Part shown: positions 4,056 through 64,000 of the stretch, one piece after another
How positions within the stretch are numbered: position 1 is the stretch's first letter
How the letters are laid out: each line of letters starts with the position of its first letter
Origin: an uncultured Bacteroidales bacterium
Lineage (GTDB): Bacteria; Bacteroidota; Bacteroidia; Bacteroidales; Paludibacteraceae
Direction: 5' to 3'
Assembly: GCA_946411385.1 (NCBI GenBank)
Contig: CAMKDV010000003.1
Location: 174,545 to 238,544 of the forward strand
DNA: 64,000 nucleotides
The notes under the pieces: generated by a model
Told to the model about the DNA's origin: nothing
The model's database searches: none
What the model saw: the letters and a program-made list of their open reading frames with translations, nothing else
Position numbers and translations under genes: made by a program

Positions 4056-4095
4056 AAATTGTTCATTCGTTCAACGTTCATTCGTTCATTCTTTA

Positions 4096-11635: not shown

Positions 11636-11717
11636 AATGAGGACTCTTAGAGGATCTCACCAATTGTCAAAAACAACGTAAGCCCATTATCACAAACGGA
11701 AAAGGAATGGTTCAACA

Positions 11718-11750
11718 GCATAACATAAGCATAAGATAAGCATAACATAA
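11718..11750. repeat. Three tandem 11-mers GCATAACATAA/GCATAAGATAA/GCATAACATAA in the 5' region of the FkbH-like gene
   Basis: Direct reading of sequence. Confidence 0.9.
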
Positions 11751-11784
11751 GAACATCGTCACTATATTATCGTTACCTTCTCAT

Positions 11785-12157: not shown

Positions 12158-13318
12158 TTATATTGACATTTGCAACACTTTCTGTATCACCGGAGCCATA
12201 TCATAGTAGGCATAATCTGCTAACCTACCTCCGAAAATCACATTATTCTCCTCTGCTGCCAAGGCCTTATATTGCGTCACTATCTCTGCATTACGTGCAT
12301 CATTTACCGGATAGAACGGCTCCATACCGGCTTGCCATTCAGTGCTGTACTCGCGGCTGATTACGGTCTTCGGATTAGCGTACACCTCAGCACCGAACTT
12401 CTCAAAATGCTTGTGCTCAATAATGCGTGTAAAAGGTACTTCACGTTCGGTATAATTAATCACTGCATTCCCCTGATAGTTAGGAGTATCAATCGTTTCT
12501 TGCTCAAATCGCACCGTTCTATACTGCAGTTGCCCGAACCTATAATCGTAATATTGGTCAATCTTGCCCGTGAACACCATCTTATCCGCTATCTCGCGCC
12601 ATGCATCCTTCAGCAGTCTTTCATCCTCAAAATCGTGAAGGACATCACTAACTTTGGCGGTGAAATAATCTACTCCTGTCACGCAATCTGCTCCTTCCAG
12701 CAGCTTATTGATCAGCACATTGTACCCGCCAATCGGAATTCCTTGATACGCATCGTTGAAGTAATTGTTGTCGTACACCATACGTACCGGCAGACGACGG
12801 ATAATGAACGCCGGCAACTCAGTGCAGGCTCTCCCCCACTGTTTCTCCGTATAGCCTTTGATCAGTTTCTCGTATATATCCTTCCCGACCAGTGTAAGCG
12901 CCTGTTCCTCAAGATTCTGCGGCTCACGTCCGTTCAACGCTTTGACAGCCTCAGCTTTCTGCTCGTCAATCTTCGCCTGTGCCTCTTCCGGAGTAATCAC
13001 GCCCCACATCTGGTAGAACGTGTTCATATTGAACGGCAGGTTATACAGCTTGCCCTTGTAGTTGGCTACCGGCGAATTTGTATAGCGGTTGAATGGAACC
13101 AGACCATTCACAAAATCCCAAACCTGCTTATCGTTGGTGTGGAAGATATGTGCACCATACTTGTGCACATGGATGCCTTCCACATCCTCACAATATACGT
13201 TGCCGCCCAACTGCTCACGACGGTCAATAACCAAACAGCGCTTACCGGCCTGCATTGCCCGATATGCGAATGTCGCTCCAAAAAGTCCTGAACCTACTAT
13301 CAAATAATCGTATTTCAT
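12158..13318 (-). CDS. glf: UDP-galactopyranose mutase
   Basis: MKYDYLIVGSGLFGATFAYRAMQAGKRCLVIDRREQLGGNVYCEDVEGIHVHKYGAHIFHTND; GRACTELP. Confidence 0.95.
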   Translation of the reverse strand: MKYDYLIVGSGLFGATFAYRAMQAGKRCLVIDRREQLGGNVYCEDVEGIHVHKYGAHIFHTNDKQVWDFVNGLVPFNRYTNSPVANYKGKLYNLPFNMNTFYQMWGVITPEEAQAKIDEQKAEAVKALNGREPQNLEEQALTLVGKDIYEKLIKGYTEKQWGRACTELPAFIIRRLPVRMVYDNNYFNDAYQGIPIGGYNVLINKLLEGADCVTGVDYFTAKVSDVLHDFEDERLLKDAWREIADKMVFTGKIDQYYDYRFGQLQYRTVRFEQETIDTPNYQGNAVINYTEREVPFTRIIEHKHFEKFGAEVYANPKTVISREYSTEWQAGMEPFYPVNDARNAEIVTQYKALAAEENNVIFGGRLADYAYYDMAPVIQKVLQMSI

Positions 13319-13337: not shown

Positions 13338-13368
13338 GTCAACAATTAACAACAATTTTTCAACAATT
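13338..13368. repeat. Decamer array L1 (GTCAACAATT AACAACAATT TTTCAACAATT), outer left end of non-coding block 1
   Basis: Direct reading; related copies at 13898, 15148, 17119, 17358. Confidence 0.85.
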
Positions 13369-13897
13369 TACAATGATCAAGAGTTTGTCAAAAATTATCA
13401 AAAATTATTCAAAAATCTAACGAAGGCTTGTTAGTAAATAAACCGACATAAACCCCAAGTTTGTCTGTTGCCTTTCTGGCTCTGTGTCTTGCGTCGCTAA
13501 AGTCCTCTCTCAAATACATTTGGCGAGGCCTTTCTCGCCCCAATCCACACCTCTTGCGAGGTACCGGCCAAACTTGGCGATAAACATAAATAAACTTCTA
13601 TGATTCACCGAATTATGACCACTTTTGAGCCTTAAATATTTGAGTTGTGACTACATTTTGAGTCATGACTACTTTTAGTCTATTAGGGGTGATTCTCCGC
13701 TTATTGATTCAATGGGTTTATTTTGGTTTATTGCTGCTTGATTGGTTGCACTTCGATAGAAGTAAGGATTAGTTGGGTAAGACACACGTCAAATGTATTT
13801 GTAAGGGTGGCTTATCCGACTAAGCCTTATAGCGCAAAGCGCGTGCAACCAAGTAAGCGGTGTTTATGTATGTTTATTTTCAAACTAATCTTTCTAA

Positions 13898-13927
13898 AAT
13901 TATGGATAATTGTTGGTAATTGTTGAC
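13898..13927. repeat. Decamer array R1 (AATTATGGAT AATTGTTGGT AATTGTTGAC), inverted relative to L1
   Basis: Direct reading; 11-bp perfect terminal inverted repeat with L1. Confidence 0.9.
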
Positions 13928-13930
13928 ATA

Positions 13931-15136
13931 CTAAGCAAGTGACTCATTATACCACTCGAACAAGCGGCCAACACCATCTTCTATTTCCACTTTGTGCGTC
14001 CAGCCGAGGGAGTGAAGCTTGCTGACATCAATCAGTTTGCGCATCGTGCCATCAGGTTTGGTTGCATCAAATAGCAGTTCACCTTTGAAACCAACAGTCT
14101 TTACCACCAGTTCAGCCAATTCGCGAATAGTCAGTTCCTTGCCGGTTCCTACATTGATGTGGCAATTCCGTATCTCACCCAGCGAAGGAATAGCCCCGCC
14201 TCTACCGGTCGAATGATTCCTATCCACAGCACCGTCAGCGGCTACACCGTAATGTACCTGCGAATACTTCTCGATACCAATAATGTCGGAGAAGTTGACA
14301 TTCAGCAGGACATGCACACTTGCGTCCGCCATATCTTCGCTCCATAAGAACTCACGTAGCGGTTTGCCTGTGCCCCAAAGTGTAACTTTGTTCGCCTCAA
14401 TGCCATAGAATGCCAGCACTTTGGCAATCGTTGCCTCATCGCTATTGCCGTCCACAACATAACGCACCACTTCGCCTTCCTCGCGGATATTCGCGCCTAC
14501 AGGACGGATAGCCAGATCCTTGCGGATCATATCCCAAGCATCTTCAGCCAACAGTTTCGACAGATAGACCTTTCTCATCATGGCCGGCATCACATGCGAG
14601 TTTTCCAGATGGAAATTGTCATTTGGTCCATACAGGTTCGTCGGCATCACGGCGATATAGTTTGTTCCGTACTGCAGGTTATAACTCTCGCACATCTTCA
14701 GCCCGGCAATCTTGGCGATGGCGTACTCCTCGTTGGTATATTCGAGCGGCGATGTGAGCAGGCAGTCCTCTTTCATCGGTTGTGGCGCATTCTTCGGGTA
14801 AATGCAGGTCGAGCCAAGGAACAGCAGACGCTGCACGCCGTGCTTGTATGCCTCTTCAATCACGTTGCACTGTATCTGCATGTTCTTCATGATGAAGTCC
14901 GCTCTGTACAGGCTGTTTGCCATGATTCCTCCCACGAAAGCCGCAGCCAATACAACAGCCTCAGGCTTCTCCTCGTCAAAAAATTTCCTAACATCGGCCT
15001 GACAGGTCAAATCCAGTTCCGCATGACTCCTGCCCACCAGGTTGTGATACCCCCGTTCCCACAGATTTTTCCATATAGCCGATCCTACCAATCCTCTATG
15101 TCCTGCTACGTATATCTTTGCACTCTTGTCTAACAT
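13931..15136 (-). CDS. fcl: GDP-L-fucose synthase
   Basis: AKIYVAGHRGLVGSAIWKNL, FLGSTCIYPKNAPQPMKED, YAIAKIAGLKMCESYNLQYG. Confidence 0.95.
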   Translation of the reverse strand: MLDKSAKIYVAGHRGLVGSAIWKNLWERGYHNLVGRSHAELDLTCQADVRKFFDEEKPEAVVLAAAFVGGIMANSLYRADFIMKNMQIQCNVIEEAYKHGVQRLLFLGSTCIYPKNAPQPMKEDCLLTSPLEYTNEEYAIAKIAGLKMCESYNLQYGTNYIAVMPTNLYGPNDNFHLENSHVMPAMMRKVYLSKLLAEDAWDMIRKDLAIRPVGANIREEGEVVRYVVDGNSDEATIAKVLAFYGIEANKVTLWGTGKPLREFLWSEDMADASVHVLLNVNFSDIIGIEKYSQVHYGVAADGAVDRNHSTGRGGAIPSLGEIRNCHINVGTGKELTIRELAELVVKTVGFKGELLFDATKPDGTMRKLIDVSKLHSLGWTHKVEIEDGVGRLFEWYNESLA

Positions 15137-15147
15137 TTCTCTTCGAA

Positions 15148-15177
15148 AATTGTTGATAATTTTTGGTAATTTTTGAC
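15148..15177. repeat. Solo decamer array S (AATTGTTGAT AATTTTTGGT AATTTTTGAC) between fcl and gmd
   Basis: Direct reading; reverse complement matches L2 at 28/30. Confidence 0.9.
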
Positions 15178-17118: not shown

Positions 17119-17148
17119 GTCAACAATTACCAAAAATTATCAAAAATT
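17119..17148. repeat. Decamer array L2 (GTCAACAATT ACCAAAAATT ATCAAAAATT), left end of non-coding block 2
   Basis: Direct reading. Confidence 0.9.
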
Positions 17149-17357
17149 TCACTTTTTGAAGTAATTGTTATTAAGTCTTTGGTTTATGTTTATCGCTCTT
17201 GAATGCTTTTACTCTATATGAGTGTGTGATTTGATGATAGAAATTATCTGGAAGTTTACTTACAAGAAATTTATATCAACAAAGCACACAAAGCGCGTAG
17301 CGCTAAAAGCATTCAAAAGTATTTATCTTTGTTAATTGTCTTACTTTCCTTTCACAA

Positions 17358-17387
17358 AATTGTTGTTAATTGTGGATAATTGTTGAC
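17358..17387. repeat. Decamer array R2 (AATTGTTGTT AATTGTGGAT AATTGTTGAC), inverted relative to L2
   Basis: Direct reading; 11-bp perfect terminal inverted repeat with L2. Confidence 0.9.
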
Positions 17388-59996: not shown

Positions 59997-62900
59997 TTAC
60001 TCCACCTTCACGCCTGTGGCGCTATACTTCCTGCCGTCGGGGAGGAGGATATACAGCATATCATTGATGATTTGCTTGCGGATGACAGGTGCGGTGATGT
60101 CCATGTCCTCAAAGTCGGTCGTAACGCCACCAGTGGTGGTGAAGGACTGCGTGGAAGAACTGATGGTGTTACCACCATTATCTTTGGCAGTGAGCGTCAG
60201 GTCATATCCTGTGCCCTTGTCCAGACCTGTGACGGTGAACGAGAAACCTGCCGATTGTCCTGATGTCTGAGCGCGTCCCGGAGCAGAGAAAGCAATAGAT
60301 GTAAGCTGTCCGTTGCTGTTGAAGACGAGCGTGCAGATGATATTGCCGTTACGGTCGCGGATAGTCAGCTCGTAGGTGTCCGCATTTTCCACAGCCGGCC
60401 AAACAACGTCGGCGGTGTTCTCGGCAGGAGTGATAGTCAGCACGTCTGTTGTGGCCGTTTCCGCGCCGATAGGCTGGATGGAATAGAAGTCTCTCCATCC
60501 GGTAGCACTACGAAACATGTCTTCTGAACCGGCAAAGACGTAGAGGGTACATGCAAATTTGTCTACATCCTCAAAGGTCGTAGCGAACGCAGTTGCCGGC
60601 GTGCGGCGGTAGTTGTAGATGGATGTCAGACTGTAACAGTTACCAAAGGCATAATCCTGTATCTTGCGCACATCCTTGCCTATTGATACGGTTTCCAGTG
60701 TCGTGATATTGGCAAATGCACTATCACCGATGATGCCCACGCCATCTTCAATAATCAAGTCCGTCATTTCGTAGACTGCTTCTACACCATAACGCTTGTT
60801 CGTTGACAGATTACCGTTGCCACTAATGGTAAGAATCTTGTTATCTGAATCGTATTTCCATTCCAATTGCAGGTTATCGCCACACTCACCATATTTATCA
60901 ACAGCAAACTCTGCGCTTAATGTTGTATCTCGCGTCACTTCTATTGTGCGTGGATTATCTGTCAGGCCATCTGTCCAATGCGTAAAGTGATAGCCATAAT
61001 TGGCTTCAGCTGTCAATACGACTTCATCCATATACTCTGCTTGGGATAGACCGGATATAGCCCCCTGCTCATCATTACACGTTGTGCTTATCATGTACGA
61101 ATTCTTCGCGAACACAGCAGTAATAGTTGTGTCACGAGTTATTGTTATGGTGCGAGGATTGTCAGTATTACCGTCTGTCCATTGCGTAAAATGATAGCCA
61201 TAGTAAGCTTCCGCTGTCAGCGTAACTTCATCCAGATATTCAGCTTGTGACAGACCCGAGATAATGCCTTGTTCTTCGTTACGTTGTTTCGTTATTGAAT
61301 AGAGGTTTTTCTCAAATTCGGCAATTAGCGTAGTATCTTGTGTCAATGTGAAAGTATATGGATTTTCAGCACATCCATTGCTCCATCGTACAAAATGATA
61401 GCCGTATTTATTATTCGCGGTAATCACTACTTCATCTAAATATTCAGCTTGAGTTATACCGGAAACAGTACCCATAGTCTGCTCTGAGTCATACGTGATA
61501 TGATAAGTATTTTTTGCAAAAACAGCCTTGTACGATTTGCTTTCCGTGGCAGTAACAGTTTTAGGATTATCTGACGTGTTTAGATGTTGTAATATCCCAC
61601 CGCCTGTGGTTTCTAACGCACTTTTGTTGTTATAGGGTGAATGCCAGTTTGTTAGATAAGAATTTACTGCCACATAATCCCCTATGGAAGCGGATTGATT
61701 TGCATAATATATCACAAATATTCCTTCTCCATTACGTTTATCGGATATATAATATGATCTATCGTAATTACCATAGGTGCCAACTATGTATCCATAAACG
61801 GTATATCGAGTTGATGTTATCTGATTTGTACCTAAAGATGCTGCTATCGAACGTGCTTGCGATGCGCTCACCCAGTTTGATGGAAGAGACGCTAAATCAT
61901 CCCAATGGTCGAAATGGTAGCCATAATTAGGAACGGCATGAAGTTCTACATCATCTAAGTACAATACAGAAGTATCTTTTGTCATCCCCCATTGAGCGGT
62001 GTTGGTTGTAATAGAAATTGTATATGCATTCTTCGCAAACTCGGCTGTGAAAGAAGTGTCACTTGCAAGTATAATAGTGCGCGGATTATCTGTCACGCCA
62101 TCAGCCCATTGTGTGAAATGATAGCCGTAATTAGCACTAGCCGACAGTCTTACTGTATCCATATACTCTGCTTGTGATAAGCCGGAAATAGAACCTTGCA
62201 CATAATCGTATTGCTGAGTAATAATATAGTTATTCTTCGCAAACTCGGCAGTAAACGTCGTGTCGCGCGAAAGAATAATGGTACGTGGGTTGTCTGTGTT
62301 GCCATCGCTCCATCGAACGAAATGATAGCCATAGTTCGGTGTAGCAGAAATAGTCAATTCGTCCAAGTGCAATGCACTGGTAGTCCCTGCGGTCATACCC
62401 CAATCGGGCGTATTGTTGCTAACTACAAGTGAATATGTATTCTTTGCAAATTCGGCAATAATAGTTGTGTCACGCGAGATGATAATAGCACGCGGATTAT
62501 CCGTTATGCCATCCGACCATTGTGTAAAGTGATAGCCATATTTAGCATCGGCTGATAGTATTACTGTATCCAAGTACTCTGCTTGTTCGACACCTATAAT
62601 CGCACCCTGCACATTATCACATTGCTTAGTAATAGTATAACTATTCTTCACAAACTCGGCTGTAAATGCGGTGTCGCGCGAAAGAATAATGGTACGTGGA
62701 TTGTCAGTCACTCCATCGCTCCATTGTGCGAAATGATAACCGTAGTTCGGTGTAGCAGAAATAGTCAATTGCTCTAAATACAAAGCAGAACCATCTCCTG
62801 ATGTTGTTCCTCTATCCGTGTTAGCAGATGTAGTTGTTACAGAATATGTATTCTTCGCGAATTCAGCCGTAAAGGTAGTGTCCTGTGTCAAAACAATCGT

Positions 62901-64000
62901 TCGCGGGTTATCGGTATTCCCGTCTGACCATTTACTAAAATGATAGCCGTAGTCAGATGAAACGGTAAGCGTTACTTCGTCCAAGTATTCCGCAGAACTA
63001 TTTCCGGAAATAGAGCCATGCTCAGCATTCTTGGTGATGTTGTAGGTGTTCTTGGCAAAAGTCGCAGTAAAGGTTTTATCTTGTGTTAAAGTGATTATCC
63101 GTGGATTTGAAGTATTGTTATCGTTCCAGCGTACAAAATGATAGCCATAATTCGGAGTAGCAGAAATTTCTACATCATCCAAATAAAGCGCAGATTTTCC
63201 TCCGGCTGTTGTGCCCCATTCGGGATTAGCGGATTCCGTTGAAATGGTGTAGGTGTTCTTCGCGAACTCGGCTATGAAAGTCGTGTCTTGCGTCAGAACA
63301 ATAGTTCGTGGGTTATCCGTGTTACCATCTGACCATTTAACGAAGTGATAGCCATAGTCAGGAGTAGCATTCAACAACATATCGTCACATATCGTTTGCG
63401 GATAGGTAACATTTCCGTTTGTAGCATATATGGTAATTGTATATGGAAGAGGCGCATATTTTACTCTACTATCATTATTCAGCAGTTGTTTAAATCGCTC
63501 CATTTCTCCGCACGGCACATATATAGCAGTCAAACTGCTGCATTCAGAGAAAGCCCGAACTCCAATGCTGGTGACACTATTAGGAATCGTCACAGAGGTC
63601 AAACTGCTACAATAAGAGAAAGCCCAATCTCCAATGCTTGTCACGCTATTAGGAATGGTGACAGATGTCAGACCGCTGCAGTATCCGAAAGCAGCACTTC
63701 CAATGCTTGTGACGCTGTTGGGGATTGTGACAGAGGTCAAACCGCTGCAATCCCTGAAAGCATTATCTCCAATGCTTGTGACACTATTGGGGATAGTTAT
63801 GGAGGTCATACCGCTGCAACCCCAGAAAGCAGACCTTCCAATGCTTGTCAAGCTATTGGGGATGGTGAAAAATGTTAAACTGCTGCAATCCATGAAAGCA
63901 TTATTTCCAATGCTTGTGACGCTATTCGGAATCGTCACAGAGGTCAAACTGCTGCAATCCATGAAAGCATTATTTCCAATGCTTGTGACGCTATTCGGAA
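59997..64000 (-). CDS. Large surface protein: BspA-type LRR (LRR_5) repeats plus 11 Listeria-Bacteroides/InlB B-type repeats; 5' end outside window
   Basis: CSSLTSVTIPNSVTSIGNNAF repeats; YGYHFxxWSDGxTDNPRTIxLxxDTTFxAEFAKN repeats; reading frame stays open to position 64000, so the track ATG at 63962 is internal. Confidence 0.92.
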   Translation of the reverse strand, partial: PNSVTSIGNNAFMDCSSLTSVTIPNSVTSIGNNAFMDCSSLTFFTIPNSLTSIGRSAFWGCSGMTSITIPNSVTSIGDNAFRDCSGLTSVTIPNSVTSIGSAAFGYCSGLTSVTIPNSVTSIGDWAFSYCSSLTSVTIPNSVTSIGVRAFSECSSLTAIYVPCGEMERFKQLLNNDSRVKYAPLPYTITIYATNGNVTYPQTICDDMLLNATPDYGYHFVKWSDGNTDNPRTIVLTQDTTFIAEFAKNTYTISTESANPEWGTTAGGKSALYLDDVEISATPNYGYHFVRWNDNNTSNPRIITLTQDKTFTATFAKNTYNITKNAEHGSISGNSSAEYLDEVTLTVSSDYGYHFSKWSDGNTDNPRTIVLTQDTTFTAEFAKNTYSVTTTSANTDRGTTSGDGSALYLEQLTISATPNYGYHFAQWSDGVTDNPRTIILSRDTAFTAEFVKNSYTITKQCDNVQGAIIGVEQAEYLDTVILSADAKYGYHFTQWSDGITDNPRAIIISRDTTIIAEFAKNTYSLVVSNNTPDWGMTAGTTSALHLDELTISATPNYGYHFVRWSDGNTDNPRTIILSRDTTFTAEFAKNNYIITQQYDYVQGSISGLSQAEYMDTVRLSASANYGYHFTQWADGVTDNPRTIILASDTSFTAEFAKNAYTISITTNTAQWGMTKDTSVLYLDDVELHAVPNYGYHFDHWDDLASLPSNWVSASQARSIAASLGTNQITSTRYTVYGYIVGTYGNYDRSYYISDKRNGEGIFVIYYANQSASIGDYVAVNSYLTNWHSPYNNKSALETTGGGILQHLNTSDNPKTVTATESKSYKAVFAKNTYHITYDSEQTMGTVSGITQAEYLDEVVITANNKYGYHFVRWSNGCAENPYTFTLTQDTTLIAEFEKNLYSITKQRNEEQGIISGLSQAEYLDEVTLTAEAYYGYHFTQWTDGNTDNPRTITITRDTTITAVFAKNSYMISTTCNDEQGAISGLSQAEYMDEVVLTAEANYGYHFTHWTDGLTDNPRTIEVTRDTTLSAEFAVDKYGECGDNLQLEWKYDSDNKILTISGNGNLSTNKRYGVEAVYEMTDLIIEDGVGIIGDSAFANITTLETVSIGKDVRKIQDYAFGNCYSLTSIYNYRRTPATAFATTFEDVDKFACTLYVFAGSEDMFRSATGWRDFYSIQPIGAETATTDVLTITPAENTADVVWPAVENADTYELTIRDRNGNIICTLVFNSNGQLTSIAFSAPGRAQTSGQSAGFSFTVTGLDKGTGYDLTLTAKDNGGNTISSSTQSFTTTGGVTTDFEDMDITAPVIRKQIINDMLYILLPDGRKYSATGVKVE
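63520..64000. repeat. 69-bp coding tandem repeats (23-aa LRR units)
   Basis: 63877-63931 and 63946-64000 are identical, offset 69 bp. Confidence 0.95.

Follow-up and report, generated by a model that had tools for sequence, protein, structure and literature searches.

An intergenic block upstream of glf in a Paludibacteraceae genome: a probable gene-less GxxExxY-type cassette with a cloverleaf-ended element nested inside

What kind of element is the 590-base block at 13338-13927 that lies between a fcl-like gene and glf in an uncultured Paludibacteraceae bacterium? We analyzed it within a window of 64,000 nucleotides, the whole stretch of DNA under study. The block sits in a capsule-type gene cluster, together with gmd and a NusG-like gene, and we take its upstream neighbour to be fcl from the gmd-fcl context. 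A preliminary description had reported perfect terminal inverted repeats, GTCAACAATTA (13338-13348) versus TAATTGTTGAC (13917-13927), with terminal array arms matching at 26 of 32 positions. We found both, with 32 of 40 matches along the longer arm, and local alignment of the block arms gave a score of 24 compared with a Markov null mean of 8.9 (sd 1.8, max 19, n=2000). Equally borne out were a subterminal repeat (AAATAAACCGACATAAACCCC versus the reverse complement of 13859-13879, 18/21), a GCGC-AAA-GCGC hairpin at 13832-13842 and an interior without a convincing ORF, there being no ORF of at least 100 aa within the block. What did change was how these parts fit together. The subterminal repeat and the hairpin, formerly read as parts of one foldback, belong to two complete cloverleaf units, as their flanking decamers and arm 1 respectively. 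The term foldback fits the shape of the block but not the functional unit, which appears to be arrays plus cloverleafs. The features of the block and its surroundings were as follows.

12158-13318, minus strand: glf (UDP-galactopyranose mutase), downstream neighbour of the block (PF03275, E=1.2e-74)
13338-13367, plus strand: left terminal array, unit 1, a three-repeat motif of 10-bp period, GTCMAHAATTAYCMAHAATTATCMAHAATT (motif scan, 5 mismatches/30)
13387-13416, plus strand: left terminal array, unit 2 (motif scan, 2 mismatches/30)
13443-13591, plus strand: cloverleaf U1 including the decamer pairs on either side, AAATAAACC.. / ..GATAAACATAAATAAAC (covariance model R1, 105.9 bits, E=4.5e-24; fold)
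13592-13719, no strand: spacer between U1 and U2 (18-bp tandem repeat at 13639-13680; no ORF)
13720-13872, minus strand: cloverleaf U2, convergent with U1 (covariance model R1, 70.3 bits, E=2.6e-15; not in the seed)
13898-13927, minus strand: right terminal array, one perfect three-repeat unit (motif scan, 0 mismatches)
13931-15136, minus strand: GDP-L-fucose synthase-like gene (fcl), upstream neighbour of the block (PF01370, E=1.2e-56)
15148-15177, minus strand: solo array of the block's motif at the gmd-fcl junction (motif scan, 0 mismatches)
17119-17387, no strand: block 2, inverted arrays (17119-17148, plus, 0 mismatches; 17358-17387, minus) around a single cloverleaf (17182-17331, minus)

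At the threshold of 5 mismatches in 30, the motif scan returned 12 matches in the window versus 0.2 in shuffled sequence. U1, whose closing stems span 13455-13577, is one of the seed sequences of model R1, and arm 1 of U2 is the GCGC-AAA-GCGC hairpin at 13832-13842. Block 2, which the preliminary description had placed in the same element class, does belong with the block; its inverted arrays surround a cloverleaf.

The outer layer of the block consists of inverted arrays of three repeats with a 10-bp period (GTCAACAATTAyCAACAATTATCCA...). The left array is made of two tandem three-repeat units, separated by the spacer ACAATGATCAAGAGTTT, and the right array of one. Cassettes with a GxxExxY gene (PF13366, PD-(D/E)XK nuclease fold) terminate in this motif as well, and a complete cassette of this kind, with inverted arrays of the block's motif around the gene, lies at the gmd-fcl junction of RUG324 (G007). 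The right array of the block and the left array of this RUG324 cassette share an identical stretch of 22 bp (GTCAACAATTACCAACAATTAT) and agree at 24 of 25 aligned bases, with an alignment score of 23 compared with a null maximum of 15. The only GxxExxY gene of the block's own genome lies between nqrE and nqrF (C5) among similar arrays, whose repeated units on both sides are built on TCAAATATTA. The left array of the block bears a suggestive resemblance to this cassette and to the right array of RUG324, in alignments that did not rise above the low-complexity null maximum; a comparable CGATGA-type spacer occurs in both GxxExxY cassettes, and the spacer-spanning alignments likewise did not exceed that maximum.

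Compared with a GxxExxY-type cassette, the block carries at each end an array of three ~10-bp repeats, the two inverted to one another, and has no GxxExxY ORF between them; an intact relative with matching ends exists in the RUG324 gmd-fcl cassette and, more weakly, on C5 of its own genome. We consider the block to be, probably, a non-autonomous, gene-less copy of a small intergenic GxxExxY-type mobile cassette, with a cloverleaf-ended element nested inside. The cassette is apparently mobile, and since the block holds no ORF of the length given above, we claim it as a non-autonomous derivative only. A genome-wide array search, as the preliminary description had proposed, gave 21+21 motif matches versus 2+0 with a reversed-pattern control, and there were a few more inverted pairs; its second proposal, conservation in relatives, led to the same end arrays, flanking a gene there. 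Most arrays of the block's motif in the window genome (G000) are solo, a state that simple excision or insertion does not explain and that counts against our reading. Elsewhere in this genome a dense run of ten GTCAA-type motif matches, all in one orientation, lies between genes (G000:C6:156500-161800, L144).

The block is present in some species and absent from others. At the fcl-glf junction, RUG324 lacks the whole block, having neither arrays nor cloverleafs, and G001 has a convergent cloverleaf pair, its second copy truncated, without arrays. The cassettes of RUG324 have arrays without cloverleafs, so that, with the cloverleafs without arrays in G001, the two layers are separable; their nesting is something that we infer. 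No target-site duplication is visible at the block ends (13338/13927) and no empty site was found in a near-identical strain, and hence we infer insertion of the block from diverged species. The same comparison bears on whether the block is an invertible switch upstream of glf. Bacteroidales capsule loci often use invertible promoters, and here inverted ends do lie within a capsule-type locus, but an unsystematic look showed no recombinase next to the block, the relatives differ in presence or absence of the block and not in its orientation, and we give the switch almost no credence.

The inner layer is formed by two convergent copies of the cloverleaf, a ~124-bp three-armed fold with a four-way junction, which has a closing stem of ~15 bp, a short arm 1, a long arm 2 of near-fixed length and a short arm 3, and is bordered at either end by paired A-rich decamers. 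Covariance model R1, built on a hand-aligned seed of six copies, found 32 full-length cloverleafs in the window genome, and they occur in 22 of 37 genomes of the genus, with 0 to 33 matches per genome. Among 62 aligned copies, both-sided changes were seen in 48 of 49 stem pairs and single-sided changes were almost absent, although these counts lean towards the model to which the alignment was fitted. The covariation score of these copies was 0.644, compared with 0.181 when shuffled and at most 0.10 for slid controls, and the hand-aligned six-sequence seed behaved similarly (0.561 versus 0.190).

Watson-Crick pairs made up 85.9% of the cloverleaf stem cells and G-U pairs 1.1%. RNA helices normally tolerate far more G-U, and its rarity makes a constraint at the level of DNA more likely; the pairing suggests such a constraint. 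A structured RNA from the intergenic region, whether 3'-UTR element, leader or terminator, would share the strong conserved secondary structure with covariation, and many cloverleafs do lie directly after stop codons. The scarcity of G-U pairs and of single-sided changes speaks against it, however, as does the lack of strand preference relative to genes: on their 5' side, cloverleafs had 62 sense gene ends versus 56 antisense gene starts, with no preference for the transcribed strand. The Rfam models gave no match in the window and seven related loci. We regard a structured RNA as very unlikely; for lack of strand bias we rejected 3'-UTR or leader RNAs, and the structured leader once offered for the block is disfavoured by units that lie on either strand relative to genes and by covariation that avoids G-U.

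Neighbouring cloverleafs no more than 130 bp apart were convergent in 14 cases and divergent in none (158 copies). The same architecture with convergent pairs, without the decamers, was found in G248, a relative in another family of the order; the order-wide covariance search scored 10 candidates per genome, so that absence elsewhere is weakly indicated. One weak match in another family (G195:C27:9227-9341, L108) folds mostly as a single long hairpin, not as a cloverleaf, and is probably a different repeat. A cluster of five same-orientation cloverleafs with near-identical copies and solo arrays (G000:C4:12500-20500, L141) apparently represents nested insertions.

The block might also be a MITE of a classical DDE insertion sequence, given that some cloverleafs do lie in MITEs. 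These have terminal repeats of the form CAYTASTGTCC.. or TAGTACTGTTGCG.. and 9-bp target duplications (e.g. ttctctttt, atgtttaat, aggaatcat). Terminal repeats of these forms and target duplications are both missing from the block, whose ends match GxxExxY cassettes instead; a non-exhaustive look revealed no autonomous IS with the block's terminal repeats. We hold a DDE origin to be very improbable, and of the earlier label MITE/foldback, MITE-like comes close while target duplication and DDE-type terminal repeats are missing. MITE-like elements of ~330 bp carry cloverleafs at G000:C1:265059, C1:266327, C26:3395, C10:127440 and C6:29302 (L063, L068, L066, L055, L052) and at C2:144754 and C4:234888 (L074, L077). 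Those cloverleaf-bearing copies whose 9-bp duplications are clear (L052, L055, L066, L068, L074, L077) lie within unrelated IS-like MITEs, which counts against our main reading. We rejected cloverleafs as the mark of one IS family, as most copies are flanked by ordinary genes and IS-like ends surround only some.

Convergent cloverleafs also enclose genes. They tightly flank GxxExxY alone in G029 (C1), GxxExxY with a 135-aa ORF in the same genome (C26), GxxExxY with a TPR protein in G030, a TPR protein alone in G006 (C12), and a DUF3784 protein with a GxxExxY remnant in G006 (C22). In 16 species of the genus, the window species among them, mutA and mutB lie 4-12 bp apart. In others the mutA-mutB junction holds differing cassettes with inverted ends, namely cloverleaf pairs with cargo (G029, G030, G032), GTCAA arrays around GxxExxY (G035, and similarly G343), other arrays around GxxExxY (G353), arrays around a four-helix-bundle/IVS gene (G020) or, in G003, a cargo-less pair with cloverleaf-like loops, recognized by eye, to which the model gave no score. 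No target duplication can be read at this junction because the species are too diverged.

In a tree of 35 GxxExxY proteins, all five GTCAA-array proteins fell in one clade (SH-aLRT 92) and all twelve cloverleaf-flanked proteins in one half of the tree (3 changes compared with 10.3 when shuffled, 0/500). Two members of that half without an assigned end type have cloverleaf-like loops downstream, again by eye. Such clustering is inflated by near-copies and by sites that proteins have in common; the mutA-mutB site appears to be the source of three of the five GTCAA proteins, so that the array clade represents about three independent sites. The phylogeny of GxxExxY tracks end type, and protein and ends are co-inherited.

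Beyond the genus, we compared the two gene flanks at 76 GxxExxY loci drawn from many phyla. Their inverted match averaged 20.2, versus 10.7 for a control in which flanks were mixed between loci. The 95th percentile of the control was exceeded at 51 of the 76 loci (p=2e-24) and the 99th at 34, while a significant inverted array was absent at 25. Short-period repeats, mostly of lag 10, stood beside the gene in 51/125 flanks compared with 4/120 far flanks (at least 14/18 matches). Close GxxExxY relatives in the public scan were from Paludibacteraceae and rumen Bacteroidales MAGs. Conserved residues of the protein are D73, E83 and K85, and its AlphaFold prediction has a pLDDT of 95.5; the nearest solved folds are Cas4 SSO0001 and the Holliday-junction resolvase Hjc, with modest TM-scores of 0.4-0.5.

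Cloverleaf pairs and arrays might alternatively be chromosomal structural elements like the BIMEs of E. coli, that is, DNA cruciforms to which a nucleoid or topology protein binds and which selection holds in place, with the GxxExxY association a by-product of insertion at tolerant sites. Orthologous cloverleafs at mutA-mutB differ in place by compensatory changes (L091, L092), and arms that diverge while still pairing could reflect a local function; convergent pairing is kept in another family of the order, and the cloverleafs are without strand bias. Structural elements fit poorly, however, with the patchy spread through the genus, with differing gene-bearing cassettes at a mutA-mutB junction that is otherwise so short, and with GxxExxY clades that track end type. 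We hold this explanation to be unlikely, though deserving of consideration.

Under the reading of the block as a gene-less cassette copy, its outer ends would be inverted arrays of three helically phased 10-bp repeats, as around GxxExxY genes in the genus and elsewhere, and the element nested between them would have convergent cloverleaf ends, which in relatives flank GxxExxY of a different clade. A GxxExxY protein from an intact cassette would bind the phased repeats and one of the other clade the four-way-junction cloverleaf; the bound protein would then cut, making any DNA between two such ends movable into intergenic sites. The protein presumably acts on the ends and copies presumably move in trans, although co-inheritance is not in itself proof of such action. 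More tentatively, and short of thinking it probable, we propose GxxExxY proteins as the hallmark of a class of prokaryotic mobile element that had gone unrecognised. Its Cas4/Hjc-like nuclease would recognise either of two kinds of paired end, inverted, helically phased three-repeat arrays or a four-way-junction cloverleaf, and would move genes, or derivatives without any, into the junctions between genes; the repeats found upstream of glf would be one such derivative.

Several known systems resemble parts of this arrangement. The intervening sequences (IVS) of 23S rRNA with an S23/four-helix-bundle ORF are ~0.4-0.5 kb long, with terminal inverted repeats, one small ORF and short tandem repeats near it, and their origin and mobility are unclear (PMC4990558). 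The block shares their small size, terminal inverted repeats and short tandem repeats, and PF05635 genes in the genus also have inverted arrays. An IVS, however, lies in an rRNA gene, has an S23 ORF and forms one long stem, whereas the block is intergenic between fcl and glf and has no ORF, and its class has phased arrays or cloverleafs and typically a GxxExxY ORF. PF05635 (four-helix-bundle/IVS) genes occur in 48 of 61 genomes of the genus, and their loci (L279-L308) tend towards inverted arrays of short repeats, with 12 of 28 exceeding the 95% control. MITEs of insertion sequences are likewise short, ORF-less and intergenic in multiple copies with inverted ends, but the presumed partner of the block is a PD-(D/E)XK-fold protein, and the block lacks the duplication and terminal repeats of that kind. 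REP/BIME elements with RAYT transposases are also structured intergenic repeats with convergent pairs and DNA-level structure, unlike the three-armed 124-bp units here; a RAYT transposase (PF01797) was rejected as partner, being absent from the window genome and present in just 2 of the 13 genomes examined. Integron attC sites are ~120 bp long and conserve structure more than sequence, as does the cloverleaf, which differs in its four-way junction, flanking direct decamers, occurrence in either orientation and convergent pairs. Cas4 and Hjc nucleases, nearest in fold to GxxExxY, are separated from it by their low TM-scores and by the size of GxxExxY proteins, ~140 residues. We found no prior description of array or cloverleaf ends in the openly licensed literature on Bacteroides cloverleaf/cruciform/MITE repeats, GxxExxY, PDDEXK_3 or four-helix-bundle/IVS mobility.

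Genes of the GxxExxY and four-helix-bundle/IVS kinds occur widely, often in multiple copies, and their function is unknown. If the flanking arrays are mobile-element ends, they would explain a large set of intergenic repeats in Bacteroidota, Planctomycetota, Chloroflexota and others, and tie many unexplained repeats to one testable kind of mobile element. The spread of IVS-like elements, an old question, would then become testable with one small protein and one DNA substrate, and the cloverleaf end would be an unusually clear example of a four-way junction in DNA that compensatory changes have preserved.

Other short-period tandem repeats (8-15 bp) lie between genes of the window at 1587-1621, 4061-4091 and 11717-11751, and are possibly ends of similar cassettes. 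At 62022-64000, long tandem repeats (411, 207 and 69 bp) lie inside a large ORF, which probably encodes a repeat-rich surface protein.
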